Below, in pieces: positions 10,694 through 29,358 of a DNA stretch of 39,765 nucleotides. Numbering within the stretch: the first letter of the stretch is position 1; each line of letters begins with the position of its first letter. Made by a program: the position numbers and the translations under genes. Below the pieces are notes generated by a model. The model did not search any database. It had not been told where the DNA came from and saw nothing but the letters and a program-made list of their open reading frames with translations. Source of the stretch: a virus. The DNA lies in IMG/VR virus record IMGVR_UViG_3300010210_000006, positions 1 through 39,765 of that record; one strand, 5' to 3'.

Positions 10694-10728
10694 CTAACAT
10701 AATGTTGCATCAGTTTTTTTTAAAGGAC
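10694..10728 (-). promoter_or_regulatory. Late promoter Pa (portal-lysis-baseplate unit)
   Basis: GTCCTTT (10722-10728), exactly 20 bases, then TATGTTAG (10694-10701, one mismatch to TAnnTTTG), then four bases and the ATG at 10689. CTCCCTGTCCTTT, 13 bases, is shared with the site at 29324-29358. Transcription would start at or beside the start codon. Confidence 0.7.
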
Positions 10729-10734
10729 AGGGAG

Positions 10735-11181
10735 TTAATCTATATTTTTCAAAAACTTCTCCTTAATAAGTTGCATAAGCGACTTACCCAAAAACCAAGC
10801 CCCCACAGCAGGCCACCAGGTAATTGAAATTGCTGCTTCAATACAACGGTTTTTTAGAAATTGGAAATAGTGTTCGCCATCAGTAAATGGAACTAATATG
10901 GTTGAAGAAAATGGGAATGCTTCTTCATATTTTGGTGCAATTCCAAAATGATACCATTTCTTTTTATAGGGTAATAGGTTGCCATTTTTGTCTTGTTTCC
11001 ACTTATTTCGTGATGCCAGGTTATTATTGAGGAATTTAAGATCTAGTTTTTTGAAAACCCAGATAGGCTTTTTCCAATGGCTACGTACACTTTCATCTTC
11101 AAACTCGACAAACATTAAATATAGCAATCCAAGAACAAAGTTTGCTGCTAAAATGTAGTATATGGAGATTAGGCCTATCAT
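10735..11181 (-). CDS. Hypothetical membrane protein (148 aa)
   Basis: An N-terminal transmembrane helix (about residues 3-24, IYYILAANFVLGLLYLMF) and a second hydrophobic segment near the C-terminus (about 115-133, AAISITWWPAVGAWFLG) enclose an aromatic, basic middle part. No family recognised. It is the last gene before the late promoter at 10694 and follows two tail-fibre-related genes; its ATG overlaps the previous stop by one base. It might be an envelope-acting accessory protein such as a superinfection-exclusion factor, but nothing in the sequence proves this. Confidence 0.55.
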   Translation of the reverse strand: MIGLISIYYILAANFVLGLLYLMFVEFEDESVRSHWKKPIWVFKKLDLKFLNNNLASRNKWKQDKNGNLLPYKKKWYHFGIAPKYEEAFPFSSTILVPFTDGEHYFQFLKNRCIEAAISITWWPAVGAWFLGKSLMQLIKEKFLKNID

Positions 11182-11519
11182 TACTCCGGAATTAAATCAA
11201 TTAACTCCTGTTCGGTCATTGAGGTAGTAAACTCGATGCCTTGTTCGGTTAACCATTGTTGTGTAAGTGGCTTTAACCATTCGATACGTGGCGGCAAACC
11301 TTGCAGGTATTCTTTTTCACCTACATTGAGGTTTATATCGGTATCATCCAAAGGAAACCAATTATGTGGCTCCTGGTGATCGATAATTTCGTTTCCTTCA
11401 TTATCAATGCCGGAAACAACTTTTAAACCTCCGTATGAGTTGTTATTGTCGGCATGGGAAAGTTCAACTACAATGTAGTTGAAACCTCCCATTTGCTTAT
11501 TTATGTCTTTACGTAGCAT
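11181..11519 (-). CDS. Small tail-fibre-associated protein with HeH/LEM-like C-terminus (112 aa)
   Basis: The first 75 residues are beta-rich and acidic. The last 30 (WLTEQGIEF, then TSMTEQELIDLIPE) resemble the short helix-extended-helix (HeH/LEM-like) motif that ends many small phage head or tail proteins. The gene sits directly after the tail-fibre gene, sharing one base between stop and start, and may encode a fibre partner or chaperone. Function is inferred from position. Confidence 0.5.
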   Translation of the reverse strand: MLRKDINKQMGGFNYIVVELSHADNNNSYGGLKVVSGIDNEGNEIIDHQEPHNWFPLDDTDINLNVGEKEYLQGLPPRIEWLKPLTQQWLTEQGIEFTTSMTEQELIDLIPE

Positions 11520-13270
11520 TACTCTTCTCTTTTATAGTTTGCAATTATTTTTGTTCCGTTTGCACCGTTTCCGGTAAGCGTGAAATTGATAGTTTTTGTA
11601 CCATCAAATATTTCATGATCGCCAATTTGTTTATAAGTTTTTGAAGCCTGGCTAACTGAACCATCAAGCGTTTTGCCTGTAATAAGATTATCCAGGCTGC
11701 CCGATTGTTGCGCTGCAATGGCTGTAAGGTTTTCATCGGTTATGATTGATATTGATTCAACCGAATAGCCTTCAGGTGGTGTAATTGAAGGGCTTGTACT
11801 CGTGGTTTCTATTATTTCACTCTCGATGTGATGAGCAGGCAAGTTAAATGGCTTTGCTCCGTTTACTGTGGCTGCAAGGCCGTATTTCTCTTTCCAGGTG
11901 TTGTGGCCTATGCCGGAGGCTGAAAAGGCTGCTACTTCGCCGATTAAATTCGCTGTAACATCATCCCAATAAGTTATACCTCCTCCTGCACTTGCTCCTG
12001 TACTGAACATTCTAACATCTAAAATTCCACTTTTATTAGCAATAAATTCTCCCGAAAGTTTTTCCCACTGCCCTGTTTTTGTAGCATAAATGGCATTCAT
12101 TTGTACCACATTATCAATGTAAGGTGCAACATTAGCATCTGTTTCGTCAACGTTATAAACCCATAATTCAAACTTGACCTTTTTTCCAGCAGTTATACTG
12201 TAATTTCCATACTTACGAATAAAAGTGGTCGTTTCTACATTATCATGTACAACTTGAACCGCATAAGTTCCAGAGTGAACAATTGTAGGTTCTGTTGTCA
12301 TTGTTCCCCTGCCGGATGACCAGCCTGTTAATGCGCCATCTTCATTTCCACCGTTTGAAATCAATGCTGTATTACTCGCCCCATCAAGTTCATAAGGAAT
12401 GTTTTCGGGGTTTAGTGAGAATTGAGCGACTTGTGAGGCGGTTAGGGCGGTGTTATAAACTACGATACTACCAATTGAACCATTTAGTGGAAAAGTAAAA
12501 CCTGATGATGAACCAACTATAAAATTTTGCACATTTAAATCACTTGTAGTGACCGTAAAAACATCAGAATTATATCGCTCAACATTATCTATAAATAATT
12601 GATATTTTCCGCCTGTCCTGTTAAATACACAAACTAAATTGTGTGCTTTTCCATCCTGAATATATTCTGATAAGTCTGATGTAAACTTGGTATCCTCATT
12701 AGTTCCGTCATATATCTGTAATCTAAATTTTCCTTGAGAGTTATCATTATATGCTAAAACTATCCTATTACCATAATCAAATATTATTTCTTTTGAAGTA
12801 ATGCCAGGATTTATAACAAGTCCATTTATAACTACAGTCGCATCTTGACTGTTGAAAATGTTTATACTAGTACTCCTTATATAATCATCCACCCCATCAA
12901 ACCAATAAGCCGGGCTTTGTGCTATTGCCTGGCGTAGTTGGGTTAAAGTAGCATACCATGAAACAACACCATTTTCATCCTTTGTCCAAAGGCTTTCGTT
13001 AAAATTACCTAACCAAGTTTTTCCTGCTGGAGGATTTCCAAGAGTGGAAGGATCAGTATTATCAAAAGTAAGGGAATCACCCACAAGTGAGGCATATGAA
13101 ATACCGGTATCGGTCCAGGCGGCACCGTTCCAGTAATACATATTTCCATCGGAATGTAATCCGGCATAATCTCCCGGTCTTCCGGAAGGATATTTTGCTT
13201 GCAATGCTGCCAGGTCGGCAAACATGCCTAAGTTGTGCTGTATAATTATTGTGCTACTGTTTTCTAACAT
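11519..13270 (-). CDS. Tail fibre / receptor-binding protein with LamG and CBM-like domains (583 aa)
   Basis: The N-terminus carries a phage-fibre motif (LAALQAKYPSGRPGDYA, about 19-35, followed by YYWNGAAWTDTG). Residues about 115-285 look like a LamG/concanavalin-A-type sandwich (YWFDGVDDYI, then a VVINGL...DYGNRIVLAY pattern, GSIGSIVVYNTALTASQVAQ at its end). Residues about 300-440 look like a CBM4/9-type carbohydrate module (NGGNEDGALTGWSS...SGTYAVQV...YWDDV). The last ~130 residues are a separate beta-rich tip. Two sugar-binding-type folds suggest it recognises surface polysaccharide or glycan of the host. Domain borders are estimated by eye. Confidence 0.75.
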   Translation of the reverse strand: MLENSSTIIIQHNLGMFADLAALQAKYPSGRPGDYAGLHSDGNMYYWNGAAWTDTGISYASLVGDSLTFDNTDPSTLGNPPAGKTWLGNFNESLWTKDENGVVSWYATLTQLRQAIAQSPAYWFDGVDDYIRSTSINIFNSQDATVVINGLVINPGITSKEIIFDYGNRIVLAYNDNSQGKFRLQIYDGTNEDTKFTSDLSEYIQDGKAHNLVCVFNRTGGKYQLFIDNVERYNSDVFTVTTSDLNVQNFIVGSSSGFTFPLNGSIGSIVVYNTALTASQVAQFSLNPENIPYELDGASNTALISNGGNEDGALTGWSSGRGTMTTEPTIVHSGTYAVQVVHDNVETTTFIRKYGNYSITAGKKVKFELWVYNVDETDANVAPYIDNVVQMNAIYATKTGQWEKLSGEFIANKSGILDVRMFSTGASAGGGITYWDDVTANLIGEVAAFSASGIGHNTWKEKYGLAATVNGAKPFNLPAHHIESEIIETTSTSPSITPPEGYSVESISIITDENLTAIAAQQSGSLDNLITGKTLDGSVSQASKTYKQIGDHEIFDGTKTINFTLTGNGANGTKIIANYKREE

Positions 13271-13280
13271 GGCTTAGTTT

Positions 13281-13469
13281 TTAGTCGATTACTACTTGAT
13301 TACGTGTAAGAACACCGAAATCATTATACTCACGGTTGTGGTGAAACACCAATACTCCATCAAAATAAAAATTAACCGTTTGGGGTTGCCCGTTAGCGTT
13401 AAAGTTGGTTCCTACTTCATCATCCCAGCGTTTAGGATATTCGCTTATGGTTTTGTTACTTTCTGCCAT
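13281..13469 (-). CDS. Small hypothetical protein before tail fibre (62 aa)
   Basis: Short, soluble, mostly polar; contains a strand-like centre (QTVNFYFDGVLVFHH). No family is recognised. It is the first gene after the tape measure and is led by the late promoter at 13504-13538, with a leader of about 31 bases. Ten bases separate it from the tail fibre gene, so it is probably a small tail component or assembly factor. Confidence 0.55.
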   Translation of the reverse strand: MAESNKTISEYPKRWDDEVGTNFNANGQPQTVNFYFDGVLVFHHNREYNDFGVLTRNQVVID

Positions 13470-13503
13470 TTGTTTAATATTTATTGTTTAAAACATCAGA
13501 TTA

Positions 13504-13538
13504 CAATTATACTTTAGCACAGCATTTAATTAAAGGAC
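13504..13538 (-). promoter_or_regulatory. Late promoter Pb (tail fibre unit)
   Basis: GTCCTTT (13532-13538), 20 bases, then TATAATTG (13504-13511, one mismatch to TAnnTTTG). It begins four bases beyond the tape-measure stop codon. The first ATG downstream that opens a gene is at 13469. Confidence 0.65.
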
Positions 13539-13541
13539 AGG

Positions 13542-16500
13542 CTATATACCTGCGTTTGTTTCAAGGGAATCCAACTCACTTAGTGTTTCCTTTAAATCCA
13601 AGGTGCCATCCAAATCCAGGATTGCTTTCACGTATTTAAAGGCGTTAACGCCGTCACGTATTTCTGTCAACAGGCTAACCATTTCGGCATTACTTACCGG
13701 AGGAGATCCAGGCTGCTGTTGCTGGTAAACATTGTTTACATTGGTAATAGCACCTGCAGCGTATTTTTGAGTAAGCAAATTTGTAAGCGCACTACTTACA
13801 TCAGGATGGGAATAGTAACCCGGTGCCATCCACTCCACACGTTCACCGCCTTTGTTCATACTTGTATCGAGCAATGCGTTAACCAGTTCAGTATTGTTTT
13901 TATAAGTTTCCTTACTCAGTATCATATATGGCTCATCGCCTTCCATTTCACCTACTTTTTTTCCTGTTTTACTGTCTATCATGTGGATTCCGCCTTCGGC
14001 GTGTGAGGCGCCTTGGGCTATTCCGCCTTTGGCGTAAGCTGGAGTTTCAGTACTGGCAATTTTGGCTATCTGAACCGCTCCTAATGCGCCTACAATAGCG
14101 GCTAATGCTATACCCACCGGTGGTGGCATTATTGTTAATGCTTTTGCAATACCAAGCGCTGTATTTACAATTGCACCAACTAAGGCTACCTCTTTTTCTC
14201 GTTTAGCCTGTTTTTGGGCAAGATCAGCCCTTTTCAGGTCAACTTCATCCTCAAGTGTTTTAACAGCATCATTATATTGCGACTGGGAAATTAACTGCTG
14301 TTTTAGCCTGTTTTCAAGTTTTGATTTTTCAAGATTATTATTTTTCTCAAATTCAGCGAGTTGTTTATTCTCATTATTGGTCCTTATTTGATTTACATCG
14401 TTCCAAACACCTATTAATGAAGAAATAGCAAACCTCATATCCTCAATACTAAGTTTCCCTTTATTAAGGTTATCAAGTAATGTAATCCAGTTGTCTGAAG
14501 ACATTCCAAAAATGTCAAACGAAGTATCGCCCTCAGTTTTATTTAATGGCATTATTTCTTTTAATTCAGAAAGTTTGAGACCAATTTCGAGTAACTTTTG
14601 GGTTAACTTTTCTTTTTCTGCATCCGATAATATTAAATCCTGAACACTTAATCCATCCCATTCACCTGAATCAATTGATGTTTTAATTTTGTTGGCCAAT
14701 GTCGACATAAATTCTTCAGTGGCTCTGTATTCTTCCTCTTCGTATTTTTTAGTTAACTCACGCTGTGCTTGTTTGTTTCCTTTTAGTGCCTTTAGTTGGT
14801 TGTTATATTCAGTTTCCCTTAATGTTGCAGTCCTTTTAAAGTTCTCCTCCATTATTTCAACATCACGAGTAACCTGCTTATCTATTTCAATCTGGTTTTC
14901 TTTGGCATGTTTAACACTTAGCCTCTTCAATTCAGCATTACGCAATTCATTGAGCCTCTTTAACTCGCTATCGTAACCTTTGGCAGAAATCACCAGTTTA
15001 TCATATTTATCATTTACAAGAGCGATTTCTCTCTCTTGACTTGACATATCCTTAAGTTCAGCATCTCTTTTAAGTTGTTCAATGGTTTCGTTTAGTTCCT
15101 TTTGTTTTTTAATTTGTTCCTTAGTTTTTGTGTCTTTTCCACCACCACCAATACCTGTTCCCCCTGTAGGATCCGGTACAACTTCACCACCTAGTTGTTT
15201 TATCAATTCATTGTAAAACAAGGTAAGCTTATTCAATTCCTTTTGCTCAGAAGATTGAAGTTTCATTATGGCGATAAACTGTTTTAGGTTTTCAGCATAA
15301 GTGCCAACATTTTGATTTGCATCTCTGTAACGCCTGGCAAAACTTCCTACAACATCCTTTACATCATCCATCGAGTCCATGGTTTTAATTTTCTCCAGGA
15401 TATCGTAAATTTCAGTAAGTGCTACTGCTGCAACATTATCACCCTTCTTTTCTGAAATATCTGTAATAATATTATCAACTATTTCTTTTTGTTGAACAAG
15501 GGATTCATTAACAATTGTCTGTAAATCATTTTCTCTGGCTTTAAGAGTCAGGTTTCGTATTAACCCCTTATTTGCCTTGTCATAGGCAAGTGCTATATCA
15601 TCTGTAGTAGATTTTTCGGTAAGTAAATTAGGTAAATAATCACCATACAATTCATTAATTTTATCTATGGTTTTTTTCCTGAGTTCAGTTCCTTCATTAG
15701 CATTGCTTAGCGTGGTAAAAAGAATTTCCATTTGGCTTCTTTCCTGAGCAATATTGCTGTTGTATTCCTTCATTAATGATGATGCCGTACTTATCTCTCT
15801 ACCTAAATTAACTATCCACCTAACTGAATCTTCCAACCAACCAACTAAACGACTATTTATGAACCACGATCTTATTTTCCTGCCTAGTTTTTCAGTATTG
15901 GCAGCAAGGTTTTCATTTTTAATGTTGTATTCATTAGTTAGCGAAGTACCTTCCTTAAGTGCTTTGTTTGCTAAATCCTGATTCTTTTTCAAGTTTTCAG
16001 TATCAGCGGCCAATGATGAAATAGCCTGAACGGCACGAGCGCCATCAATACCCAACTCATCAAGACGGTTAGCCATAACCTGGAAACCATCATTGTTTTT
16101 ATTAAGGCTTTCGAGTAGTTTTATAAATGCTTCATTAGCATCAGTTTTTAATAACTCACTTAAATCACTAACGCTCATGCCTGTAATTTCAGCATATTTT
16201 GAAGTGTTGGTGAACATATCAACCAATACTTTATTTACTGCGGTTGCTGACATTTCTAATGTTTGCCCACTTTCATCAAATGTGGCAGCCATTCCAAATA
16301 TGTCTTGAGCAGAAATATTTGCATTTTTAGCAACTCCGGAAAGTCGTTTACTCCAATCAATAATATATGGTGCCTTAGCCTTAGTGTTTTGTGCTAGTTC
16401 ATTAACTGAAGAACCTGCCATATCCATTGCACGCGAAAATGATACTCCATATTTCTCTGCAACTTTAAGGTTAGTAGTAATTTTACCAACTTCTAATATT

Positions 16501-17078
16501 GCTTTACCGGCACTGTCGCCAAGATCATCACCAAGGGCAACATTTATCTTATTAGCAGAACCAACAAAGTCTAAAATATTTTTCCTGCCTCTAATACCAA
16601 GCCTTCCGGCCTCTTCAGCAAGCATCAATAATTCTTTACGTGGAGTTCTTGTATTAAATTTACTAAATTCAGAATATAGTTTACGGACTTCTGACCTGGT
16701 TAAATCTGTGGTTTTTCTAACATTTGCGAATGAATCCGATAATTTAATGTTGTATGATATAACATTTTTAATGGCATAAACTAAACCTGAAATTGATGCT
16801 ATTCCTGCAGTAACTACACCAAAATATTTATTAAAACTACTTGCAAGCCTGCTAAATAGTGAGTTTGTACCTCTTATTTCAGATCTAACTCTCTGTAAGT
16901 CCTTTTCTACTTTCTGAACCTCTTTGAGTTTTTTTACCCAGGCAGCCGATCCTATTTCAAGTTTTTTTAACTCTGATTTAAGCATTCTGGATTGCTTGTA
17001 GAGCGATCCCATTGTTTGTCCGGCTTGCTTATCATTTAAATAAACATTAAACCTAATATTTTCTGATCTGCCACTCAT
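13542..17078 (-). CDS. Tail tape measure protein, TP901-type (1178 aa)
   Basis: Sets tail length and passes DNA and proteins into the cell. Starts with a helical segment; residues about 95-430 have the TP901 core pattern (KLSDSFANVRKTTDLTRSEV, then EEAGRLGIRG and VNELAQNTKAKAP). A long Lys/Glu-rich coiled-coil region spans about 440-970, a Pro/Gly-rich linker with TGGTGIGGGGK is near 640, and a hydrophobic stretch at about 985-1030 (GIALAAIVGALGAVQIA) is the usual membrane-active segment. A siphovirus-like long tail is implied. Its start overlaps the previous stop by four bases (ATGA). No frameshifted chaperone gene is visible just before it. Confidence 0.9.
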   Translation of the reverse strand: MSGRSENIRFNVYLNDKQAGQTMGSLYKQSRMLKSELKKLEIGSAAWVKKLKEVQKVEKDLQRVRSEIRGTNSLFSRLASSFNKYFGVVTAGIASISGLVYAIKNVISYNIKLSDSFANVRKTTDLTRSEVRKLYSEFSKFNTRTPRKELLMLAEEAGRLGIRGRKNILDFVGSANKINVALGDDLGDSAGKAILEVGKITTNLKVAEKYGVSFSRAMDMAGSSVNELAQNTKAKAPYIIDWSKRLSGVAKNANISAQDIFGMAATFDESGQTLEMSATAVNKVLVDMFTNTSKYAEITGMSVSDLSELLKTDANEAFIKLLESLNKNNDGFQVMANRLDELGIDGARAVQAISSLAADTENLKKNQDLANKALKEGTSLTNEYNIKNENLAANTEKLGRKIRSWFINSRLVGWLEDSVRWIVNLGREISTASSLMKEYNSNIAQERSQMEILFTTLSNANEGTELRKKTIDKINELYGDYLPNLLTEKSTTDDIALAYDKANKGLIRNLTLKARENDLQTIVNESLVQQKEIVDNIITDISEKKGDNVAAVALTEIYDILEKIKTMDSMDDVKDVVGSFARRYRDANQNVGTYAENLKQFIAIMKLQSSEQKELNKLTLFYNELIKQLGGEVVPDPTGGTGIGGGGKDTKTKEQIKKQKELNETIEQLKRDAELKDMSSQEREIALVNDKYDKLVISAKGYDSELKRLNELRNAELKRLSVKHAKENQIEIDKQVTRDVEIMEENFKRTATLRETEYNNQLKALKGNKQAQRELTKKYEEEEYRATEEFMSTLANKIKTSIDSGEWDGLSVQDLILSDAEKEKLTQKLLEIGLKLSELKEIMPLNKTEGDTSFDIFGMSSDNWITLLDNLNKGKLSIEDMRFAISSLIGVWNDVNQIRTNNENKQLAEFEKNNNLEKSKLENRLKQQLISQSQYNDAVKTLEDEVDLKRADLAQKQAKREKEVALVGAIVNTALGIAKALTIMPPPVGIALAAIVGALGAVQIAKIASTETPAYAKGGIAQGASHAEGGIHMIDSKTGKKVGEMEGDEPYMILSKETYKNNTELVNALLDTSMNKGGERVEWMAPGYYSHPDVSSALTNLLTQKYAAGAITNVNNVYQQQQPGSPPVSNAEMVSLLTEIRDGVNAFKYVKAILDLDGTLDLKETLSELDSLETNAGI

Positions 17079-17653
17079 TGTATGAACATTTGTTTAGTGT
17101 TGAGCACAATAGAATCACCTGCATGTTTTACAATAGTATCGCTAAGTGATTTTATATTTCTGTCAAGAGTATTGTTAAACCAGTTCTGGCGAACACGGTA
17201 TTTTACAACTTCCGATTTGGCAATACGTGCAACACCACCACCGTTGGCAACATATCCACTACCCACACCTTTTTGAAGAAAAACACCATGGCGTTCAAGT
17301 CCGAAAGCAATAGTATCTATCTGTTCACCACCTATTTCTTTCCTGAATTTCGCCCTTATTGATGATTTGAGTTTATTTTCCTTTTTGCCTTTATGAATGC
17401 CTGATTTATATACTCTAATACCAGTTTTACCGTTTGTAAAACGGCTACCGGCTTCTTGCCGGAGTTGTTTTGCAACCTTACGTCCCCAAATTCTAACATC
17501 CTTATTAAAAGCATCTATAACCATTGGGGAAGAAATAACACTTCTCTTTTTTGAATTTGAATCGAGTTTGATTACTGGATTTTCATTAACGAACTGCAAG
17601 CCACGTCTGCGGCCATCCATTTGTTGTTCTAATATTCGCTTCATAATTCCCAT
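17075..17653 (-). CDS. HK97 gp10-like head-tail/tail-completion protein (192 aa)
   Basis: Basic protein with N-terminal helices and a central pattern (RKVAKQLRQEAGSRF ... SSIRAKF-like strands, FGLERHGVFLQKGVGSGY) resembling gp10-type minor tail or head-tail proteins; it directly precedes the tape measure. The ATG at 17653 is chosen because the late promoter -7 box at 17658-17665 ends four bases before it, as for three other late genes; an internal ATG at 17644 is the alternative. Assignment is by pattern and position, not by a database search. Confidence 0.6.
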   Translation of the reverse strand: MGIMKRILEQQMDGRRRGLQFVNENPVIKLDSNSKKRSVISSPMVIDAFNKDVRIWGRKVAKQLRQEAGSRFTNGKTGIRVYKSGIHKGKKENKLKSSIRAKFRKEIGGEQIDTIAFGLERHGVFLQKGVGSGYVANGGGVARIAKSEVVKYRVRQNWFNNTLDRNIKSLSDTIVKHAGDSIVLNTKQMFIQ

Positions 17654-17657
17654 GAAA

Positions 17658-17692
17658 CAAAAGTGCATATTGGGCCATGTCAATAAAAGGAC
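17658..17692 (-). promoter_or_regulatory. Late promoter Pc (tape measure unit, proximal)
   Basis: GTCCTTT (17686-17692), 20 bases, then CACTTTTG (17658-17665, TA changed to CA), four bases, then the ATG at 17653. It begins right after a hairpin (17693-17722), so the hairpin may end transcription that starts at the second site, 17750-17784. Confidence 0.6.
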
Positions 17693-17722: not shown

Positions 17723-17749
17723 AAATCTAATTATGGGTACAATAAAATT

Positions 17750-17784
17750 CAAATGTATGTTTCATTGAATTATTTTAACAGGAC
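17750..17784 (-). promoter_or_regulatory. Late promoter Ph (tape measure unit, distal)
   Basis: GTCCTGT (17778-17784), exactly 20 bases, then a perfect TACATTTG (17750-17757). It has the best -7 box of the family and a variant upstream box. Between it and the gene lie a hairpin and promoter Pc. Confidence 0.65.
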
Positions 17785-17813
17785 ATATTTTTTATAGCTA
17801 TTATTTACCCGAA

Positions 17814-20309: not shown

Positions 20310-21938
20310 TTAGATCATCTCTGTATCATCGAAGGAGGCTGCGCTATCGTTCCATTGGTCAGCGTACTTGCCATAGAACCATGTAGACCATGCCTCCTGT
20401 GCATGGGTAGCATGCTCGGGTAGTATGTTGGCATCCTTCTCACTACGTTTGTCAATTTCAAATCCGGATGGACCTTGACGTGTCATAGTGTTCTCCATGG
20501 ATGTGAGCAGGGACTCACAGTTATGGTGATTGAACTTAGGCATAGGTAACTCAGGACACCCACGTAAGGCATTGTTAAACATCTCATATCGTGATTCATA
20601 AGAGGGTGCCTGGCCTATGTAGAACTCATTCACATCCCAGTCATTCTCCCGGAGGATATCTATTACCTGGTCAGCGAATGTATAATCACCTAGTATTGCA
20701 TTGCGGCCAATGGCTGTATGGTCGAAGTAGTAATTAACTTCTTTGGTTGAGTGGTCTTGATAGTATTTGCAAAACTTCTTGACTACATCTTTAAGCATTA
20801 GTGGGGACTTAACAAAGAGGAAGTTAATAGTCTTCGCTCCTTGTGATACCACCAGGCTATTGATAACAGCGTTATAGTCAAGTGAGATGTCGAGTGCATC
20901 TTCCGGATCCACATCCCCATCCTGATGGTAATCGTGCTTCTTGAGTTTGGTGAAGTCAAATCCAATTTTATCAATCTTTTGATAATTGAATTTTGTATAA
21001 TAATGCATGTCTTCATCCAGCATTGGATAAAACATTCCTTCTTCCTTTTTAACTCTTTCGTTAAGGATTGAAGCCCTGTATTTTAGTGACGGTAGATTCC
21101 TTTTTTGTTCACTAATAAATGACGGACCTAAAACACGTAGATTCTCCAAAGTTGAGAATTCTGAAAAGTAAACCAGGCTTTCTTCTTTATCACCACCTTT
21201 GCGGATATATTCCAAAAAATTCTCCAACTTAGATATTTTATTTTTAGTTGATTTACTTAAGTTATCTGAAGAATTTTGTAGTTTAATTATTTTCTTAATT
21301 AAGGCTTTCATTAGTAAAATGTCCTCTTCATCCATTTCATCTTCATACTTCATTATCCACTGCTGTTTTGGCGATGTGGGCATATCAGTACAAAATAATA
21401 ATGAATGATGACAAGATTCTTTTTGAAAATATTGGCGATTGCCTCTATTAGTCTGAAATGTCTCCTGAAGTTTGTCAAAATTTAAGTGTTTAGCTTCATC
21501 ACCTACAATATAATCAACAGATGGACCTGCAGAGTTACTTACTCGATCTTGACTTACCAACACCTGGCATGATCCATTAAACCAAAATATTGCATGTTTT
21601 GGGGATAAAGGAGAGTTATAAGGTTCTGGCCACAACCAAGATTTTGGAGGTTTCTTTCCTATAAAATAATCTACATCTCTATGATACCCCATTCTTTTCC
21701 ACATTTCAATAACAGGTGGTAAAGTATTTACTAGCAAGTGCTGAAATGTTGGACCTACAATAATACCTTTGGAACGAGGCATTCGAAAAAGTTTATCTAC
21801 TACTAGAACAGCAATTACACCCTCACTTTTTCCAGTTCCACGACCCCAAACACAAATTGTAACCGGAGCGTTTATTAGGTAAACTAATTGCTGTGGATCA
21901 TTCAGATAAAGTTCTTTTTCAATTGCTTCATTTGTCAT
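20310..21938 (-). CDS. terL: Terminase large subunit (542 aa)
   Basis: The packaging motor: ATPase plus nuclease. Walker A is GRGTGKS (about residues 32-38 from the ATG at 21938), Walker B is VDYIVGDEAKHL, and the nuclease aspartates sit in DISLDYNAVI (about 348) and YYFDHTAIG (about 405); the end is typical (HATHAQEAWSTWFYGKYADQW). An ATG three codons earlier (21947) is possible; the gene overlaps the small subunit gene either way. The right part (ATPase) is very AT-rich while the left part (nuclease, 20310 to about 20940) is near 50% GC, with a sharp border. The gene is intact, so this looks like domain exchange by recombination. Confidence 0.9.
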   Translation of the reverse strand: MTNEAIEKELYLNDPQQLVYLINAPVTICVWGRGTGKSEGVIAVLVVDKLFRMPRSKGIIVGPTFQHLLVNTLPPVIEMWKRMGYHRDVDYFIGKKPPKSWLWPEPYNSPLSPKHAIFWFNGSCQVLVSQDRVSNSAGPSVDYIVGDEAKHLNFDKLQETFQTNRGNRQYFQKESCHHSLLFCTDMPTSPKQQWIMKYEDEMDEEDILLMKALIKKIIKLQNSSDNLSKSTKNKISKLENFLEYIRKGGDKEESLVYFSEFSTLENLRVLGPSFISEQKRNLPSLKYRASILNERVKKEEGMFYPMLDEDMHYYTKFNYQKIDKIGFDFTKLKKHDYHQDGDVDPEDALDISLDYNAVINSLVVSQGAKTINFLFVKSPLMLKDVVKKFCKYYQDHSTKEVNYYFDHTAIGRNAILGDYTFADQVIDILRENDWDVNEFYIGQAPSYESRYEMFNNALRGCPELPMPKFNHHNCESLLTSMENTMTRQGPSGFEIDKRSEKDANILPEHATHAQEAWSTWFYGKYADQWNDSAASFDDTEMI

Positions 21939-22542
21939 CTTCACCAACTATTTCAGCATTTTCAAAATCAACCTTTTTTTTAGATTTCTTTTTAAATTTC
22001 TTAATTAAAGAATCTATTTCTTTATCTGAGTAATCAGGGATATCTCCTAGGGCTTTAGGATTAGAAGTAATAACCAAAATATTTTGCTGAAGCATATCCG
22101 GAGTAATTCGGTTATCATCCCCTCGAGGATGGCCCAGAACCATAGCAAGGTTTCTTTCAGCCGCTGCTTTGGCTCGCATATCACCTTTAGTTTTCGACAT
22201 ACGAATAGTTTCGATTATCGAATCTATGAGAAACTGATCATAGTAATTGTTATCGATGGAAACTGTAGAGCCAATTACATATTGCATGTGATGGATATCT
22301 CGATAAGCCTGTGCCCTGCTAATGCCATATTTTGTTTTGAGTTTTCTGGCCACTTCATGACGGCTACGTTTTTGAGACAGCAGATCATGACAAAAGAAAT
22401 ACCTGTCCATCCTGGCTTTTTCTGAAGTAGTAAGTTTTACAGAATCTTCACCATTATTAATATACTCGATAATCTTTTCGTTTTCATCGAGTTCCTTTGT
22501 CAGGTAGGTTGTTTTGATATTTTTTGTCAGTTGTTTTCTCAT
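21928..22542 (-). CDS. Probable terminase small subunit (204 aa)
   Basis: A helix-turn-helix is visible at about residues 58-90 (SRHEVARKLKTKYGISRAQAYRDIHHM), followed by a helical middle part and a Lys-rich C-terminus (KKFKKKSKKK). Small terminases recognise the packaging site with such an HTH. It overlaps terL by some 11-20 bases and is preceded by another HTH-like gene overlapping by four bases. With two candidate small-subunit genes in a row, which of them binds the pac/cos site is unclear; this one is nearest terL and is the better size. Confidence 0.65.
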   Translation of the reverse strand: MRKQLTKNIKTTYLTKELDENEKIIEYINNGEDSVKLTTSEKARMDRYFFCHDLLSQKRSRHEVARKLKTKYGISRAQAYRDIHHMQYVIGSTVSIDNNYYDQFLIDSIIETIRMSKTKGDMRAKAAAERNLAMVLGHPRGDDNRITPDMLQQNILVITSNPKALGDIPDYSDKEIDSLIKKFKKKSKKKVDFENAEIVGEDDK

Positions 22543-23376: not shown

Positions 23377-24175
23377 ATTCTCGCATTTTATATTTCTCTT
23401 CTCCCGCCATTTTGTTCAGTTTGTCGGCAATAACATTACTTTCAGCGTATAATTCAGCGAGTTTCTCAGCGTTTTTTTCAGGCTTTTTCTTTGCTTTACT
23501 AATGTATGTACCTAATGTTCTCCAACGCTTATCAAGTGCGATAGGATCTTCATCATCGGCTTTTATCTCAGGCTTTTTCTTCAGATCTTCCACTTCCGGA
23601 AGTTTGCCATGCTTTGCAAAAAAATCTATCTGTTTCCAGCATTCATTTACCTGGTCATATTTTGATATGATTTGCTCTGCCATTTCTTTTCGTTCAGCAG
23701 CAATGGCCAGATAATCCTCACTTTCTTCATCAAACTTTTCCATTTCGTCACCTTTGGCAACTAACATGGAAAACAGATTTTTGGCTTCTACATACAAAGT
23801 ATTTTTCTTTGTGTAGATGTCAATTAGTTCTTTTGGACGTTTTTCTTCAGGGAAAGGATCCTCCAACTCTCTACCTGCAGTTTTGTCCAGGTTCTCAATC
23901 TGATTGATATCAAATTGTGGCAAATCTTTACCTGCAGTTTTTGTATCATCCTTTGGTTTTTCTTCTTTCGATTGAGGAAGAATAGGCAATCCTAACATTA
24001 GTTTGAATTGCACCAAAAGAGTATCGATTACTCTTTTATTATCAGTCTGTCTGCGCAGTCTGCGAAGCAAATTAGGCTTTCTGCCAAATTCAACATATAA
24101 GTTTAATCCTTGTTTAGCAGTACGCTTTGGATTATCAATCCACTTCTGGATTTTTTCTTTTTCTTTAGAGTTCAT
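23330..24175 (-). CDS. Hypothetical coiled-coil protein (281 aa)
   Basis: Highly charged, Lys/Glu-rich helical protein without cysteine motifs or membrane parts. N-terminal region (1-60) is basic with LLRRLRRQTDNKR; a proline-containing linker spans about 65-110; the rest is long helices (YVEAKNLFSMLVAKGDEMEKF; EKNAEKLAELYAESN). Scaffold-like or terminase-regulating roles are conceivable given its place at the head of the packaging genes; I do not recognise a family. It overlaps its neighbours by 11 and 47 bases, unusual even for this tightly packed operon. Confidence 0.55.
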   Translation of the reverse strand: MNSKEKEKIQKWIDNPKRTAKQGLNLYVEFGRKPNLLRRLRRQTDNKRVIDTLLVQFKLMLGLPILPQSKEEKPKDDTKTAGKDLPQFDINQIENLDKTAGRELEDPFPEEKRPKELIDIYTKKNTLYVEAKNLFSMLVAKGDEMEKFDEESEDYLAIAAERKEMAEQIISKYDQVNECWKQIDFFAKHGKLPEVEDLKKKPEIKADDEDPIALDKRWRTLGTYISKAKKKPEKNAEKLAELYAESNVIADKLNKMAGEEKYKMREYETPAKEESTETKDK

Positions 24176-24911
24176 ATTTCGATTTATTTGGAAATTTTTT
24201 TACAATGAATGTTTGAAGTTGCGATGTAAGTCCGGCATTATTATAACCCACGTATAACCTGTTGTAACAGGAAGTTTCAATCTCGCTCATATTGCTTACC
24301 GGCATTTCGAAAGTTGCCTTAAGAATACCAATATGATGATGCTTTTTGAGCCCTGCCTGGTTAAAGTAAAAGGTGTTAATTGTGAAGCGTTCATTTTCCT
24401 GATGGGCGAATCCTTCAAATATTGATCTGAATTTTTCAGCATTAACAGGCTGTGGAATATGAGTGTCGTAATGATAGGTTGTTTTATTTTGGCTCTCAAG
24501 AAATTCTTTAGTACGTTTCAATCCTTTTTTCCATACACCACTCCAGAACCAGGCTTGTTCATTTTTAAGATCTGAAAGGAAAAAGGGTTTGAGTTCATCA
24601 GCCTTTGGTTTTCTTAATACCAGGTGATCATCACACGACCAAAAGAAAGTTGGTGTGATATCTGGAAAACATGCTGCCTCTAACACTTTATTGATAATAT
24701 TTGCATCCTTATTATGACGAAAATAATCAGGCAAATCAATAACTTTTACTTTTTCTGTGTTTAACCATTTAGGCATTTTATGGCCTACAATTATCACATT
24801 TCTTACAGGAAAATTTTGCTCAACTGAGCGAAGCAAATATTTGAGTTCGTTATTGTCGGCCCAAATACTTTCATCTGCTTTTAGCGGAATTACAAAATCA
24901 TATTTTTTCAT
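24165..24911 (-). CDS. Stealth-like / glycosyltransferase-type protein (248 aa)
   Basis: The start MKKYDFVIPLKADESIWADN and NELKYLLRSVEQNFP are typical of nucleotide-sugar transferases of the GT-A plan and of Stealth-type sugar-phosphate transferases; further signatures are VIIVGHKMPKWL (about 36-47), a DD pair in FWSCDDHLVLRKP (about 90-102) and YHYDTHIPQPV (about 145-155). It opens the packaging-gene unit directly behind late promoter Pd, whose -7 box ends four bases before this ATG. A sugar-type transfer onto phage DNA, capsid or host surface is possible. Family assignment is by pattern and should be tested. Confidence 0.55.
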   Translation of the reverse strand: MKKYDFVIPLKADESIWADNNELKYLLRSVEQNFPVRNVIIVGHKMPKWLNTEKVKVIDLPDYFRHNKDANIINKVLEAACFPDITPTFFWSCDDHLVLRKPKADELKPFFLSDLKNEQAWFWSGVWKKGLKRTKEFLESQNKTTYHYDTHIPQPVNAEKFRSIFEGFAHQENERFTINTFYFNQAGLKKHHHIGILKATFEMPVSNMSEIETSCYNRLYVGYNNAGLTSQLQTFIVKKFPNKSKYEL

Positions 24912-24915
24912 AATC

Positions 24916-24950
24916 CAAAGTTGCAATTGCGCAATTGCAAATAAAAGGAC
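24916..24950 (-). promoter_or_regulatory. Late promoter Pd (packaging unit)
   Basis: GTCCTTT (24944-24950), 20 bases, CAACTTTG (24916-24923), four bases, then the ATG at 24911. The spacer and -7 region contain the perfect 20-bp palindrome TTGCAATTGCGCAATTGCAA (24921-24940), a likely regulator site. The terminator of the capsid unit ends immediately upstream. Confidence 0.7.
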
Positions 24951-24952
24951 GT

Positions 24953-24986: not shown

Positions 24987-25024
24987 AATGAAAATTAAAT
25001 TACAAAGTTAAACTATGAAAAGTA

Positions 25025-25681
25025 TTATACTACAGGTTCAAGAGTGATCGCTCCTGTATAAATTGGTGCAGGTCCATTCTGCCAACTCTTAAATTGGAAG
25101 GTTGAGCCTTTTTCGCCTCCGGAATTATTTCCGGAAGAACCGGTAACATTTCCCAATACTGCAGGAACACCTGGTTTAATTCCTAAAATTCTTTTATTTC
25201 CATCGGCTTCCTGAACGATTACTAAAAATTTGGTTGTTCCTGCCAAACGTTGGAACCCAAGTGAGGCTGCATCATTTTTAGGGAAGAAAAATTCATAAAT
25301 CGATTCGTAAGAATTTGAGTCTTTTCCTTCGATTTTATTGTCATCTATTTTTCCACTATCGGGCGATGCATATAATTCAAGGAATTTTGAGCCTACTTTT
25401 GGTATAATATCGGTGTCAACGGTTGCGTAATCTCCCAATGCGGCAGGATTGGCAACATAACCTGGTAAGGTTTCAACTTCAGATATGGGAATATAATAAG
25501 CGAGTAACTGGGTACCTGCCATATTATCCTGGCCATCTTCAAAATTCAAATCAGCAAAACCTATTGGCGGTGCCATTGCAAGGGTTAGGCCTTCAGTAAG
25601 GCTTGCACCAAACAAAAATGCGGCGAGGGCCACTATGGCCATGCTTATTAAGATAAATGATATTTGTGCGTATTTTTTCAT
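25025..25681 (-). CDS. Structural-protein paralogue with N-terminal membrane segment (218 aa)
   Basis: From residue 36 on it is clearly related to 28109-28819: shared GKIDDNKIEG, YESIYEFFFPKNDA, LGF(Q/M)RL(A/S)G, QE(A/S)DGN and QNGPAPIY. Unlike the paralogue it begins with a hydrophobic segment (about residues 5-34, ISFILISMAIVALAAFLFG) that looks like a signal anchor. The ATG at 25681 is supported by the TAATCGCAAAA element 11 bases upstream, also found before the capsid gene; a start at residue 36 (25576) would remove the membrane part. Function unknown; see the finding. Confidence 0.65.
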   Translation of the reverse strand: MKKYAQISFILISMAIVALAAFLFGASLTEGLTLAMAPPIGFADLNFEDGQDNMAGTQLLAYYIPISEVETLPGYVANPAALGDYATVDTDIIPKVGSKFLELYASPDSGKIDDNKIEGKDSNSYESIYEFFFPKNDAASLGFQRLAGTTKFLVIVQEADGNKRILGIKPGVPAVLGNVTGSSGNNSGGEKGSTFQFKSWQNGPAPIYTGAITLEPVV

Positions 25682-25708
25682 TATAAATTATTTTTTGCGA
25701 TTAAAACT

Positions 25709-25726
25709 AGGGCACCGAAGTGCCCT
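25709..25726 (-). terminator. UUCG-capped hairpin after the capsid gene
   Basis: AGGGCAC-UUCG-GUGCCCU, a 7-bp perfect stem closed by C(UUCG)G, a very stable RNA tetraloop, followed leftward by AGUUUUAAU. It can stop part of the transcripts behind the capsid gene or protect its mRNA 3' end. Confidence 0.75.
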
Positions 25727-25748
25727 GTATTATTTATCCTGCAATTGA

Positions 25749-26720
25749 CTAGGCGTCTACTGCGGCTTCGTTAGTGAAGAAAACATCATTCAATGTAGCA
25801 AACTGCACACCATATGCAGCAGCAAGGTAGAATCCAACAACCTTAGGGTTGATGCCTGTGGTTACTTTTACATTTTCCTGATCAGACTCAAGGTCGGTAC
25901 CTACAAGCATGTTCCAGTCTGTAGTTAGGATAATACGCTTTGAAGTACCCATTCCGGTTAACGGCTCAAGAGTACATTTTCTACCAGATCCTTCAAGGAA
26001 AGTTTTTTCAAACTTGGTATTATAAGGTAATGATCCATTCATTTCCTGGTAATTGTCGTTATAAGCATCCATTACCTCATGAGAAATTCTCAACTTTATT
26101 TCTTTGCCACGCAAAGCAGGGTTTATTGCACATGCTGCACGATAAAATGCTTTGAGTTTTGCTACTGCATTTGTTGAATCAATTGCACCAGTTTCAATTA
26201 AGTTTTTCTTGGCCACTGAAATATTACCTGCAGTAACTTCGGCATCGATGATGGTGAAAAATCCATCGTTTACATCTTCCGGAGCATCACCTGCAGAATC
26301 ATGAACACCCCAAAAGGCAGTTACATCATTAAAATCAGATGCAGCCTGACGAGATATTCCCTCAAGGAAATCTTTTTCGAAAGGATGGTCCTTAGGATCA
26401 ACACCTTTTTTCATTATGTGGCCGAGATAAGTTTTCCTGTAAGCCATAGGCTCTTCTTCAAGCATAACTTCACCAACTTCAACCCTAAGAGTTCTTGGTT
26501 TTAAGTTAACTTTATCAACAGCAGGATCCCAATCACGCTTATAAGGTCTCAACAGGCGTTGAAATCTTAAGGTTGTCATGGTGTATTTATCCTTAATGCC
26601 GGCAACAACATCCAATTTCTGGAATACTTCATTGTCGGTAACAGCAATTTTTATGAGTCCTTTTTGGAACTTTTCCGCATATTGCTGAAGAGCGGTAATA
26701 TCAGTTGCATTTACTCCCAT
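25749..26720 (-). CDS. Major capsid protein (323 aa)
   Basis: Recognised from its position directly after the S49 protease and scaffold, its size and its composition: helical N-arm (1-60), a strand-rich middle with an E-loop-like LRVEVGEVMLEEEPMAYRKTY (about 80-100), a spine-helix-like LIETGAIDSTNAVAKLKAFY, and a C-terminal domain ending FATLNDVFFTNEAAVDA. HK97-fold capsids have this plan. No delta-domain scaffold is fused, so the separate nested scaffold would be needed. TAATCGCAAAA lies 10 bases before the ATG. Confidence 0.8.
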   Translation of the reverse strand: MGVNATDITALQQYAEKFQKGLIKIAVTDNEVFQKLDVVAGIKDKYTMTTLRFQRLLRPYKRDWDPAVDKVNLKPRTLRVEVGEVMLEEEPMAYRKTYLGHIMKKGVDPKDHPFEKDFLEGISRQAASDFNDVTAFWGVHDSAGDAPEDVNDGFFTIIDAEVTAGNISVAKKNLIETGAIDSTNAVAKLKAFYRAACAINPALRGKEIKLRISHEVMDAYNDNYQEMNGSLPYNTKFEKTFLEGSGRKCTLEPLTGMGTSKRIILTTDWNMLVGTDLESDQENVKVTTGINPKVVGFYLAAAYGVQFATLNDVFFTNEAAVDA

Positions 26721-26778
26721 TTGAAAAATATTTTGCGATTATTAATTTCTTTATTTTACAATCAATCAGGATGTTAAC

Positions 26779-27162
26779 CTATTTGATTTTGCTTAGTTCG
26801 TAATAGTGTTGTGCTTCAGCATCAACCACTTTGTTTTTATCAAGATCATTGTCGCCTTCGCCAACGGCTCCGGTTTCTTTAACAGTTTCTTTACTGAGTT
26901 TTTCATTCTCTGTGGTTAGAGTTTGATTTTTCTCAGTTAGATCTGAATTAGATTGTGTTAGTTCAGCAATTTTCGATTGCAAACCATCAACAGTTTCACC
27001 TTCTTTCAAACCTGAATACGCTTCAGCGTTCTGGTGTAAAGTTGTGAGTTCAGATTGTACTTTTTCAGCCTGATCGGTAGAAAGGAATATACCATTATCG
27101 GCTACCTCTAAAGTTTCAAGTCCGGCTGATTTGGCCAGTACTTTAAATTCTGGTTTATCCAT
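26779..27162 (-). CDS. Nested scaffold protein from an internal ATG (127 aa)
   Basis: Same frame as the protease gene; starts at MDKPEFKVLAKSAGLE. The region before the ATG is strongly A/T-rich (Asn/Lys linker), a good Bacteroidetes start context. The protein is helical with coiled-coil segments (IAELTQSNSDLTEKNQTLTTE), as expected of a scaffold. By analogy to lambda C/Nu3 it would be made in excess over the protease. The internal start is a prediction. Confidence 0.5.
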   Translation of the reverse strand: MDKPEFKVLAKSAGLETLEVADNGIFLSTDQAEKVQSELTTLHQNAEAYSGLKEGETVDGLQSKIAELTQSNSDLTEKNQTLTTENEKLSKETVKETGAVGEGDNDLDKNKVVDAEAQHYYELSKIK

Positions 27163-28056
27163 ATTATTTTTTGAATTTGAATTATTTGTTAAATTTTGAT
27201 TTTGCTTGTTTTTTTGAGCGAGCTCAGCCGCGCGAGAAATGGCAAATGATAAATCGCCAATTGAATCTACAAGAGTTCCAACAAGATTTTCTACCTGGAA
27301 GAAACCACCCTCGAGTTGTTCATCAGTAACATTTGGACGTTGCTCTCTAACTGCATCCATAAATTGTTTGTCGTGTGGATCCAGTAGGTTTTTTTGAATA
27401 GGTGCATCATTGCCTTTTAGTGCTTCTTCAAACTCAAGATTTTTCTTGCCTGAAGTGGTTGCATAAATTCTGCGATATACTTTGCCATCCTTATCAGTAT
27501 GGTTTTGAGGCATGCCCTCAATACCTATAAACGTACCTATGCTACCCATAAATGAACCAGGTAAGGCAACAATTTCTTTTGCATGAACACCGGCAAAAAC
27601 TCCTGCACTGTGCATGTTGCCATCAATAAATGCTACAATAGGTTTACTTGCTTTTGTGAATGCTTCTTTTAAAGGAGCAACTGAAGTTGATTGACCACCA
27701 CCGGTATCGAAAATAACTACATGGGCAATAACATCAGGAGTATTATCAGCGTTGGTGATTTCTCTTGCAATGGTTTTTGTTCCAACTGGCCCGCATGCTG
27801 TATCATATTTTAACATTGGACCATTAATAGAATGTACTGCTATAATTCCTTTTTGAGAATCTGACTTGCCATTTGGCTCAACATAAGATGCTGATTGTAA
27901 ATCCCAAAATCGCGAAACAGGCTCTAATGAATTTGAATCCATTTCAAATTCCATTCCCGTTAAAATTGCGTGGAGTATATGCTGATATTGAAGATATGAC
28001 TGGAGCGATATTGCCCAGGTATCTTCAAGTACTGCTCTTACAAGTGAATAATTCAT
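26779..28056 (-). CDS. Prohead protease (S49/SppA-like) fused to scaffold domain (425 aa)
   Basis: Residues about 65-275 form a ClpP/SppA-type serine protease: IAVHSINGPM, FDTGGGQS (oxyanion region), the nucleophile S150 in DGNMHSAGV, and LPGSFMGSIGTF (the SppA 'GSIG' box). From residue 299 (MDKPEFKVL) a second, helical, Gln/Glu/Lys-rich part follows after an Asn-rich linker. This matches phage lambda C, where a protease and the scaffold Nu3 share one frame. It is led by late promoter Pe and followed by the capsid gene. Confidence 0.85.
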   Translation of the reverse strand: MNYSLVRAVLEDTWAISLQSYLQYQHILHAILTGMEFEMDSNSLEPVSRFWDLQSASYVEPNGKSDSQKGIIAVHSINGPMLKYDTACGPVGTKTIAREITNADNTPDVIAHVVIFDTGGGQSTSVAPLKEAFTKASKPIVAFIDGNMHSAGVFAGVHAKEIVALPGSFMGSIGTFIGIEGMPQNHTDKDGKVYRRIYATTSGKKNLEFEEALKGNDAPIQKNLLDPHDKQFMDAVREQRPNVTDEQLEGGFFQVENLVGTLVDSIGDLSFAISRAAELAQKNKQNQNLTNNSNSKNNMDKPEFKVLAKSAGLETLEVADNGIFLSTDQAEKVQSELTTLHQNAEAYSGLKEGETVDGLQSKIAELTQSNSDLTEKNQTLTTENEKLSKETVKETGAVGEGDNDLDKNKVVDAEAQHYYELSKIK

Positions 28057-28073
28057 ACCTATTATTTATGCTA

Positions 28074-28108
28074 CAAGATTATAGCATCAGGTATTTTTGC
28101 AAAAGGAC
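28074..28108 (-). promoter_or_regulatory. Late promoter Pe (capsid unit)
   Basis: GTCCTTT (28102-28108), directly behind the stop codon of 28109-28819, 20 bases, then TAATCTTG (28074-28081, one mismatch). Leader to the ATG at 28056 is about 14 bases. A hairpin ATGCTA/TAGCAT overlaps the -7 box. Confidence 0.7.
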
Positions 28109-28819
28109 TTAATTTACGTGAATTTGGATATGACGTTCAGTTAATTGATTGTTGGAATTATATGAATAATACCAGGTGAATATTTTTTTATTGAGATGAT
28201 AATAATCTGTAACCAACGGAAGCCCTATACTATTGGCTTGAGAAATAATAAAGGAGGTGTAAATCATTGGGTATAATGAAAGGTCCTCACTATCCCGATC
28301 CAAATTAAAAAGCCCATTATATATAGGAGCCGGTCCGTTTTGAACTGAGCGCACCTGGAAGGTTGCACCCTTGTCGCCTGAACTTAATGTACCGGAAGAA
28401 CCGGCCACACTTTTTATTACTGCAGGTTTACCCGGACTAATTCCCATAATTCTCAAATTGCCATCCGATTCCTGGACAATAAAAACGAATTTAGAACCAC
28501 TCAATCTCATAAATCCTAAGGCGTTAGCATCATTCTTTGGGAAGAAAAATTCATAAATCGATTCGTAGGATCCTGTATTACCTTCTATTTTATTGTCATC
28601 AATTTTGCCGGTATTACTAGTGGCATAAATTTTATAGAAAGTTTTGTATGGCATTGGTACCACATCGCCATCAAGAATTGAATAATCAGCAAAAGTTAAA
28701 GGATTTGGTTTGTATGGAGGAATATAAAATACTTCATCAAACGATAATGCCCAGGCCACCACTGGAACGCCCGGCATATTATCTTCACCTTGTGTAATAT
28801 TTAAATCTGTAAAATCCAT
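28109..28819 (-). CDS. Structural protein, paralogue of 25025-25681 (236 aa)
   Basis: Starts MDFTDLNITQGEDNMPG and shares with the gene 2.4 kb downstream the blocks GKIDDNKIEG, YESIYEFFFPKNDA, SSG..SGDKGATFQ and QNGPAPIYNG. It has no membrane part but a C-terminal extension of ~35 residues (about 190-236) that the paralogue lacks. The shared block before a Pro-Ile-Tyr near the end also resembles the end of 28822-29319 (KRAPIYEL). A tail-tube or decoration role is likely from gene context; unproven. Only two bases separate it from 28822. Confidence 0.6.
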   Translation of the reverse strand: MDFTDLNITQGEDNMPGVPVVAWALSFDEVFYIPPYKPNPLTFADYSILDGDVVPMPYKTFYKIYATSNTGKIDDNKIEGNTGSYESIYEFFFPKNDANALGFMRLSGSKFVFIVQESDGNLRIMGISPGKPAVIKSVAGSSGTLSSGDKGATFQVRSVQNGPAPIYNGLFNLDRDSEDLSLYPMIYTSFIISQANSIGLPLVTDYYHLNKKIFTWYYSYNSNNQLTERHIQIHVN

Positions 28820-28821
28820 AA

Positions 28822-29319
28822 TTATGCTGTTGAACCTGATGATGATCCGGAAGTTAGTTCATAAATAGGAGCCCTTTTCTCAAGTATTCCTGTAAATTGA
28901 TAGTTGTAACCCTTTATGCCTGAAACTGTTTGAGTTTCAAAATCGCAATTAAAGGTTAGAGGTTGTTCTTTTGTTCCTGCAATTTTCTCTAGGTCATCGT
29001 TATCGGTTAAATGAACTATAAACCTGCGGCCATCCATTTGCACAAGCAGTTGGAGCATTTCAGGAGATTCAGGAACAAAGCCTTTTAATGATGATTGGAT
29101 GTAATGTCCATTATCATCCTGCTTACTTTCTTCAGAATATTTTAGCGAATCCACGCTTGCATAACCGGTATACCATAATTTACCTACTTTCAGTTGAACT
29201 GAAGAAGTAATTTTATGGTCGGTTGGCCGCGCGACGGAAATCACACTCTCAACTTGAGTAAATCGAAATGTGGCTAAACCGCCAATATTATCAATTTGTG
29301 GCTGTGGAAAATTATTCAT
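28822..29319 (-). CDS. Putative tail-tube/structural protein (165 aa)
   Basis: Beta-rich, starts MNNFPQPQIDNIGGLATFRF and has patterns found in tube-like phage proteins (GKLWYTGYASVDSLKYSEE; MDGRRFIVHLTDNDD; GIKGYNYQFTGILEKRAPIY). Ends in a Ser/Gly-rich tail. It is the first gene of the whole late block; the -7 box of promoter Pf ends four bases before its ATG at 29319. The name 'tail tube' is a suggestion from fold-like features; it could also be another virion protein. Confidence 0.55.
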   Translation of the reverse strand: MNNFPQPQIDNIGGLATFRFTQVESVISVARPTDHKITSSVQLKVGKLWYTGYASVDSLKYSEESKQDDNGHYIQSSLKGFVPESPEMLQLLVQMDGRRFIVHLTDNDDLEKIAGTKEQPLTFNCDFETQTVSGIKGYNYQFTGILEKRAPIYELTSGSSSGSTA

Positions 29320-29323
29320 GTTG

Positions 29324-29358
29324 CAAATATTGAATTATGAACTATTATATGAAAGGAC
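29324..29358 (-). promoter_or_regulatory. Late promoter Pf (first late unit)
   Basis: GTCCTTT (29352-29358), 20 bases, AATATTTG (29324-29331, one mismatch), four bases, ATG at 29319. A second GTCCTTT at 29398-29404 lies 46 bases upstream but has no matching -7 box (TTTAGCCT); GCAATTGC repeats fill the space between. Confidence 0.7.

Follow-up and report, generated by a model that had tools for sequence, protein, structure and literature searches.

The 39,765-nucleotide stretch of viral DNA analyzed here, i.e. positions 1 to 39,765 of IMG/VR record IMGVR_UViG_3300010210_000006 (hereafter the window), carries on its minus strand seven copies of a composite motif, consisting of GTCCTTT (once GTCCTGT), a spacer of 20 bases and a -7 box of the type TAnnTTTG, dispersed ahead of the late genes. 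Between the early genes and the first of these copies lies a small gene, whose product (hereafter the junction protein) is a candidate activator of the late promoters. The features are listed below in the direction in which the minus strand is read.

30000-30007, minus strand: TACATTTG box, 50 bases before the ATG of the candidate activator gene, with no GTC[C/T]TTT upstream; possibly an early, host-type promoter
29490-29957, minus strand: gene of the candidate late activator (junction protein; 155 amino acids, basic, isoelectric point 9.0), between the early genes and late promoter 1, singled out by family profile and synteny
29399-29405, minus strand: extra GTCCTTT, 47 base pairs upstream of the GTCCTTT of promoter 1, with no -7 box at spacing 20
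29324-29358, minus strand: late promoter 1, GTCCTTT-N20-AATATTTG; predicted start 29319, the A of the ATG of gene 28822-29319 (predicted leaderless)
28074-28108, minus strand: late promoter 2, GTCCTTT-N20-TAATCTTG; ahead of the protease (26779-28056) and capsid (25749-26720) genes
24916-24950, minus strand: late promoter 3, GTCCTTT-N20-CAACTTTG; predicted start 24911, the A of an ATG (MKKYDFV...); ahead of the packaging genes, including the terminase (20310-21947); a terminator-like hairpin lies directly upstream, and a 7-base-pair inverted repeat inside the spacer
17750-17784, minus strand: late promoter 4, GTCCTGT-N20-TACATTTG, with a perfect -7 box; 92 base pairs upstream of promoter 5
17658-17692, minus strand: late promoter 5, GTCCTTT-N20-CACTTTTG; predicted start 17653, the A of an ATG (MGIMKRI...); ahead of gene 17075-17683 and the tape measure gene (13542-17078)
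13504-13538, minus strand: late promoter 6, GTCCTTT-N20-TATAATTG; predicted leader of about 30 nucleotides; ahead of gene 13281-13469 and a fibre-like gene (11519-13270)
10694-10728, minus strand: late promoter 7, GTCCTTT-N20-TATGTTAG; predicted start 10689, the A of an ATG (MKLISRKK...); ahead of the portal gene (9078-10382) and the genes after it

A first-pass annotation had proposed the seven sites as a late-promoter family with an invariant spacer and -7 boxes within one mismatch of the consensus. Reading the minus strand directly, we found all of them in place, with the single GTCCTGT at 17784, a spacer of exactly 20 bases in 7 of 7, and boxes that each match five or six of the six fixed bases of TAnnTTTG (5, 5, 5, 6, 5, 5 and 5 in the order above, the site at 17750 having the only perfect box). 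When the spacing was slid from 8 to 35, a single peak appeared at 20, where the sum over nine words was 40 compared to 22 for the next best spacing. The plus strand of the window has no GTCCTTT-N20-box site, and 400 dinucleotide-preserving shuffles, scored on both strands, gave a mean of 0.09 sites per window and a maximum of 2, as opposed to the seven observed; the composite motif is thus far from equally frequent in shuffled sequence, and the seven-site pattern is real and far beyond chance. By homology, the units headed by the sites include protease and capsid genes at 28074 and packaging genes at 24916. The pair at 17658 and 17750 stands ahead of the gene that precedes the tape measure, the site at 13504 ahead of fibre-like tail genes, and that at 10694 ahead of the portal gene and those after it. 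The earlier count of three host-type TTG-N20-TAnnTTTG promoters in the window has to be corrected to four. As a separate observation, the extra GTCCTTT at 29399-29405 is followed by TTGCAATTGCAAGCAATTG, and the spacer of the 24916 promoter contains the similar TTGCAATTGCGCAATTGCAA, possibly an operator.

The motif recurs in diverged phages across the Bacteroidota phylum, which supports the late-promoter family. Loci fetched by way of the capsid and terminase proteins already had it ahead of structural genes, and an exact scan of viral contigs for GTCCTTT-N20-box-N4-ATG returned at least 120 stretches, compared to 10 with a spacing of 21 and 30 with GTCATTT, an AT-richer word and hence one with a higher background. 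In 80 loci among the scan matches listed, extra copies other than the seed numbered 44 at spacing 20 and 0-1 at each other spacing, with no copies at spacing 20 on the opposite strand. Likewise, exact copies in 41 whole records were confined to one strand per record, and the reversed pattern was unmatched. In 26 related virus genomes with a guanine-cytosine content of 34-56%, the loose motif occurs two to seven times per genome on the late strand; for GTCCTTT-N20-TAnnTTTG, this strand holds 118 sites and the other strand 4, with a mean of 0.44 at other spacings. Every tested single-base change of GTCCTTT yielded 0-4 sites in these genomes, i.e. the word is near-invariant.

In a logo of 292 non-redundant sites, the search had fixed the word, whereas its C/T ratio, the flanking bases, the spacer and some positions of the box were measured; the logo reads T (71%), G-T-C-(C 0.90/T 0.10)-T-T-T, an uninformative spacer, TAnnTTTG, a preferred C and an A five bases past the box. 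The phage sites thus have the -7 box of Bacteroidota sigma-A, TAnnTTTG, whereas the host -33 element, TTTG, is absent and GTC[C/T]TTT stands instead, the base after the word being G in only 14%. A clade of phages that encode the junction protein family described below but have no GTCCTTT (loci L005, L007 and L021) carries GTCTTTT-N20-TAnnTTTG with equal spacing, and one genome (G007) uses both words. Two peculiarities of the spacers were observed alongside. Several GTCCTTT promoters of genome G042, at 30486-38193 and 8755 in the oriented record, have a near-identical spacer end (ACTGAGGGGG), while spacers elsewhere are free. Furthermore, in about 7% of the late promoters, with examples among loci L089, L082 and L101, the 20-base spacer resembles an intrinsic terminator hairpin, with the -7 box as its T-run (e.g. 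GTCCTTTATAGCCCCTAACTCAGGGGCTATTTTTG); inverted repeats with arms of at least six bases were found in 20 of the 292 spacers versus 1.1% of shuffled spacers. At such sites the putative terminator and the promoter overlap completely.

In 396 cellular genomes, sampled from the phylum of one Bacteroidales genome, 66 copies of the exact motif were counted, with no excess over the reversed control and, by our estimate, close to the expectation from its 13 fixed bases for that much DNA. Since it is not enriched there, the motif is a phage signal, and a host regulon was rejected.

The -7 box of Flavobacterium johnsoniae comprises T-12, A-11, T-8, T-7, T-6 and G-5 relative to the start, and the -33 element of this organism is weak (PMC6847099). 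A box at -12 to -5 places GTC[C/T]TTT at -39 to -33, on the host TTTG element, and the enriched A five bases after the box coincides with the start expected from this geometry. Compared with host sigma-A (sigma-ABfr type) promoters, TTTG/TAnnTTTG, the -7 box and predicted start geometry are therefore equal (PMC6847099), while GTC[C/T]TTT in place of the -33 element and the spacing fixed at 20 are different. In sets of sites unselected for ATG, which alone were used here since the seed scan included an ATG, the first ATG lies at exactly offset 4 in 12 of 37 and 14 of 38 sites, with 0-2 at neighboring offsets; in control TAnnTTTG boxes without GTC[C/T]TTT, the figure is 19 of 812. About one third of the phage sites would accordingly have their ATG at +1, pointing to leaderless late mRNAs, whereas in F. 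johnsoniae leaders exceed 10 nucleotides for 87% of the predicted transcripts (PMC6847099). Leaderless mRNAs are rare among Bacteroidota; of 37 Bacteroidetes/Chlorobi genomes in an older survey, one had leaderless genes that could be detected (PMC3160421). In the window, four of the seven sites (29324, 24916, 17658 and 10694) have an ATG at the predicted +1, and three of these imply start codons downstream of those chosen by the open reading frame (ORF) finder. The longest-ORF starts of 10375-10710, 17075-17683 and 24165-24926 are probably wrong, the promoters placing the true ATG at 10689, 17653 and 24911, respectively.

A direct search with the 155-residue junction protein alone found no relatives. 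The family was revealed only by a profile built from four positional counterparts, picked for their position at the early/late junction (the window and loci L018, L008 and L010); these are genes of 155-175 codons, the products of which share 9-20% identity with the window protein. With this profile, one protein per genome, of 155-236 residues, was identified in 22 of the 26 genomes, with E-values from 1e-26 to 2e-4 for proteins outside the profile, and two more genomes have a member missed by the ORF filter (G020, 2.5e-18; G014, 8e-18), giving a total of 24. No other non-structural protein is as widespread in the set: primase is found in 20 of the 26, integrase in 19 and LuxR-type proteins in 9. 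In most genomes the family's gene precedes every late site or the majority of them, the distance often being 400-600 bases. A TAnnTTTG box is located at most 250 bases upstream of 14 of the 22 members, none of these boxes following GTC[C/T]TTT, which fits an early, host-type promoter.

The reciprocal approach started from the protein alone: 79 loci were fetched with it, and about 6 kilobases (kb) downstream on the same strand were examined. This region holds 62 sites at spacing 20 (45 with GTCCTTT and 17 with GTCTTTT) compared to 3 at 20 other spacings together, while 6 kb upstream there are 3 sites at spacing 20. At least one downstream site was found in 56 of the 79 loci, although these counts are not all independent, as some loci come from phages already found by the motif and several are near-identical. 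Among the phages reached in this way are Bacteroides phage BT-TP2 and two Porphyromonas gingivalis prophages, with the motif ahead of their structural genes. A structure search with the model of the window protein had one match at E <0.001 in the viral structure library, an unnamed protein encoded by Polaribacter phage Leef_1 (E 1.3e-9, TM score 0.8), and the family profile confirmed it (E 6e-20). About 650 bases separate its gene from a downstream GTCCTTT-N20-TATACTTG, which precedes the protease/capsid gene, and a second site occurs elsewhere in that genome.

Scans of family members against Pfam, PHROGs and NCBIfam gave nothing significant, and a sequence search of the PDB found no relative of the junction protein. 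Two members were modeled with AlphaFold2 from separate alignments, with a mean predicted local distance difference test of 92.4 and 89.6 and a predicted template modeling score of 0.84 and 0.81, the first value of each pair being that of the window protein. Both models have an equal order of predicted elements, strand-helix-strand-helix-strand followed by helices, the last of which appears long and basic and contains Arg143, the sole invariant residue across diverse alignments. The isoelectric point is 9-10 in the five members for which it was computed. Judged from its sequences, the family is very divergent and previously unrecognized.

What has been computed here, i.e. the motif, its spacing, strand and recurrence, and the co-occurrence and position of the gene, leads us to infer the following with regard to DNA binding, polymerase contact, timing and leaderless transcripts. 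The seven sites would be activator-dependent late promoters, and the junction protein would read GTC[C/T]TTT and recruit the host sigma-A polymerase, a reading to which we assign a probability of about 77%. Made early, from a promoter without GTCC, the protein (29490-29957) would bind the asymmetric GTC[C/T]TTT word and hold the host sigma-A polymerase through protein contacts, in place of the contacts between sigma region 4 and the -33 element, while sigma region 2 would still open the TAnnTTTG box. An invariable spacer of 20 bases with no sequence conservation would suit two proteins that are rigidly joined along the DNA. In this manner, one small protein could turn on several dispersed late units, and four of the seven window promoters would yield mRNAs beginning at AUG. 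The first-pass proposal that GTCC replaces the host -33 element and is read by a phage-specific factor has held up in the tests of spacing, strand, recurrence, cellular genomes and gene co-occurrence. Between the two factors it had offered, the retained host-type -7 box and the near-universal small basic protein favor an added activator over a modified polymerase.

Several observations weigh against this proposal. Two genomes with the motif have no confident family member: G025, an incomplete record in which no terminase or protease was detected, and G042, where a sub-threshold candidate of 181 residues ends 3 bases before a site. No site was found within 6 kb in 23 of the 79 protein-fetched loci. 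Foldseek searches of the PDB with the two confident models had best E-values of 1.3 and 3.7, with no recognized DNA-binding fold. The comparison with non-carriers, which itself speaks for the proposal, covers only five to six phages: against its presence in 24 of the 26 motif genomes, the protein is absent from the five motif-less Bacteroidota phages checked, namely B40-8, Flavobacterium 11b, crAss001 (first half only), hankyphage p00 and Freya_8, which have no GTCCTTT site with a box of at least 5/6. Lastly, a backbone of genes for head, packaging and tail is common to most of the 26 phages, so the co-occurrence is partly a matter of common descent and cannot alone prove a role. Function is argued for more strongly by a word and a spacing that stay invariant although the spacers have diverged fully.

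Instead of activating alongside host sigma-A, the junction protein might be a sigma-like, or sigma-replacing, specificity subunit that directs the polymerase to the entire promoter. Word, spacer and box do act as one rigid unit, like a two-element sigma promoter, but the -7 box is that of host sigma-A, including its distance to the start, and no sigma domain was found by Pfam, PHROGs, NCBIfam or fold search, making this option unlikely. Just as doubtful is the idea that another factor reads GTCC, either a host factor or a phage regulator such as the LuxR-type protein encoded at 38398-38940, and that the junction protein has another role. A genuine GerE domain (PF00196, E 1.4e-14) is present in this LuxR-type protein, a counterpart also exists in Leef_1, and shared descent could explain the co-occurrence of the junction protein. 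However, a host regulon is counted against by the lack of enrichment in cellular genomes, and the LuxR/GerE protein was rejected as the reader, since the LuxR profile is found in only 9 of the 26 motif genomes, fewer than either primase or integrase. As a side observation, the LuxR-type gene sits in the early region, and its Leef_1 counterpart is labelled 'LuxR family'. That the sites act after initiation, by loading an antiterminator like lambda Q or N, or as terminator or processing signals, is very improbable: some do overlap the terminator-like hairpins described above, but most spacers have no hairpin, and each of the several copies per genome is locked 20 bases from a -7 box, with a preferred A at the expected start. 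Chance, or inheritance without function, is scarcely credible even for phages with a common gene backbone, as chance is rejected by the shuffles and the spacing, and inheritance fits poorly with a word and spacing that stay fixed around uninformative spacers without remaining similarity.

Activation of several dispersed late promoters, via the host polymerase, by one small phage protein that is synthesized ahead of the late phase is known from Mu C and P2 Ogr/Delta. The system proposed here would resemble them in its single small early-made protein and several dispersed late promoters, but the junction protein matches no Pfam model, including the Mor/C and Ogr/Delta families, and the proposed target, a single asymmetric word of 7 bases that overlaps -33, is neither a dyad nor a more upstream site. 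At the middle promoters of phage T4, MotA takes part in sigma appropriation, where an asymmetric box replaces the -35 element and the host -10 region is kept. It appears to be the closest mechanistic analogue, although neither the sequence nor the fold of the junction protein matches any solved structure, no AsiA-like partner turned up here (no search was aimed at one), and the promoters are those of late structural genes, with a -7 box of the Bacteroidota type at an invariable 20 bases from the word. In Gram-positive phages, the late regulators of the RinA/ArpU type are likewise small basic proteins encoded at the early/late junction, but the junction protein has no Pfam, PHROGs or NCBIfam match, and would have several target promoters rather than one. 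The logic thus appears to be like that of Mu C, P2 Ogr or T4 MotA, while the protein is none of these by sequence or fold. No description of late-gene switching in Bacteroidota phages was found in the open-access papers searched, preprints excluded.

Elsewhere in the window, the proteins encoded at 25025-25681, 28109-28819 and 28822-29319 fall in one homology cluster, i.e. duplicated virion-type genes around the protease and capsid. Identical 20 bases (GAATCCCCCTCTCTCCGCAA) are found at 1-20 and 39746-39765, representing either a circular assembly overlap or an attachment-site core. No tRNA and no Rfam element were found in the window.

We consider it reasonably likely that a new-fold activator family controls the late genes in a large share of temperate Bacteroidota phages, replacing the contact between sigma-A and -33 at a near-invariant GTC[C/T]TTT and driving late mRNAs without leaders, in a phylum where Shine-Dalgarno sequences are largely missing from mRNAs. 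If so, one short motif would mark the late operons in many uncultured gut, oral, rumen and marine phages, where it would show the late genes, correct start codons, aid prophage detection and point to the activator gene of each phage. It would also equip Bacteroides genetics with a phage-specific pair of promoter and activator, and provide a natural set of predicted leaderless mRNAs with which to test how Bacteroidota ribosomes start translation.

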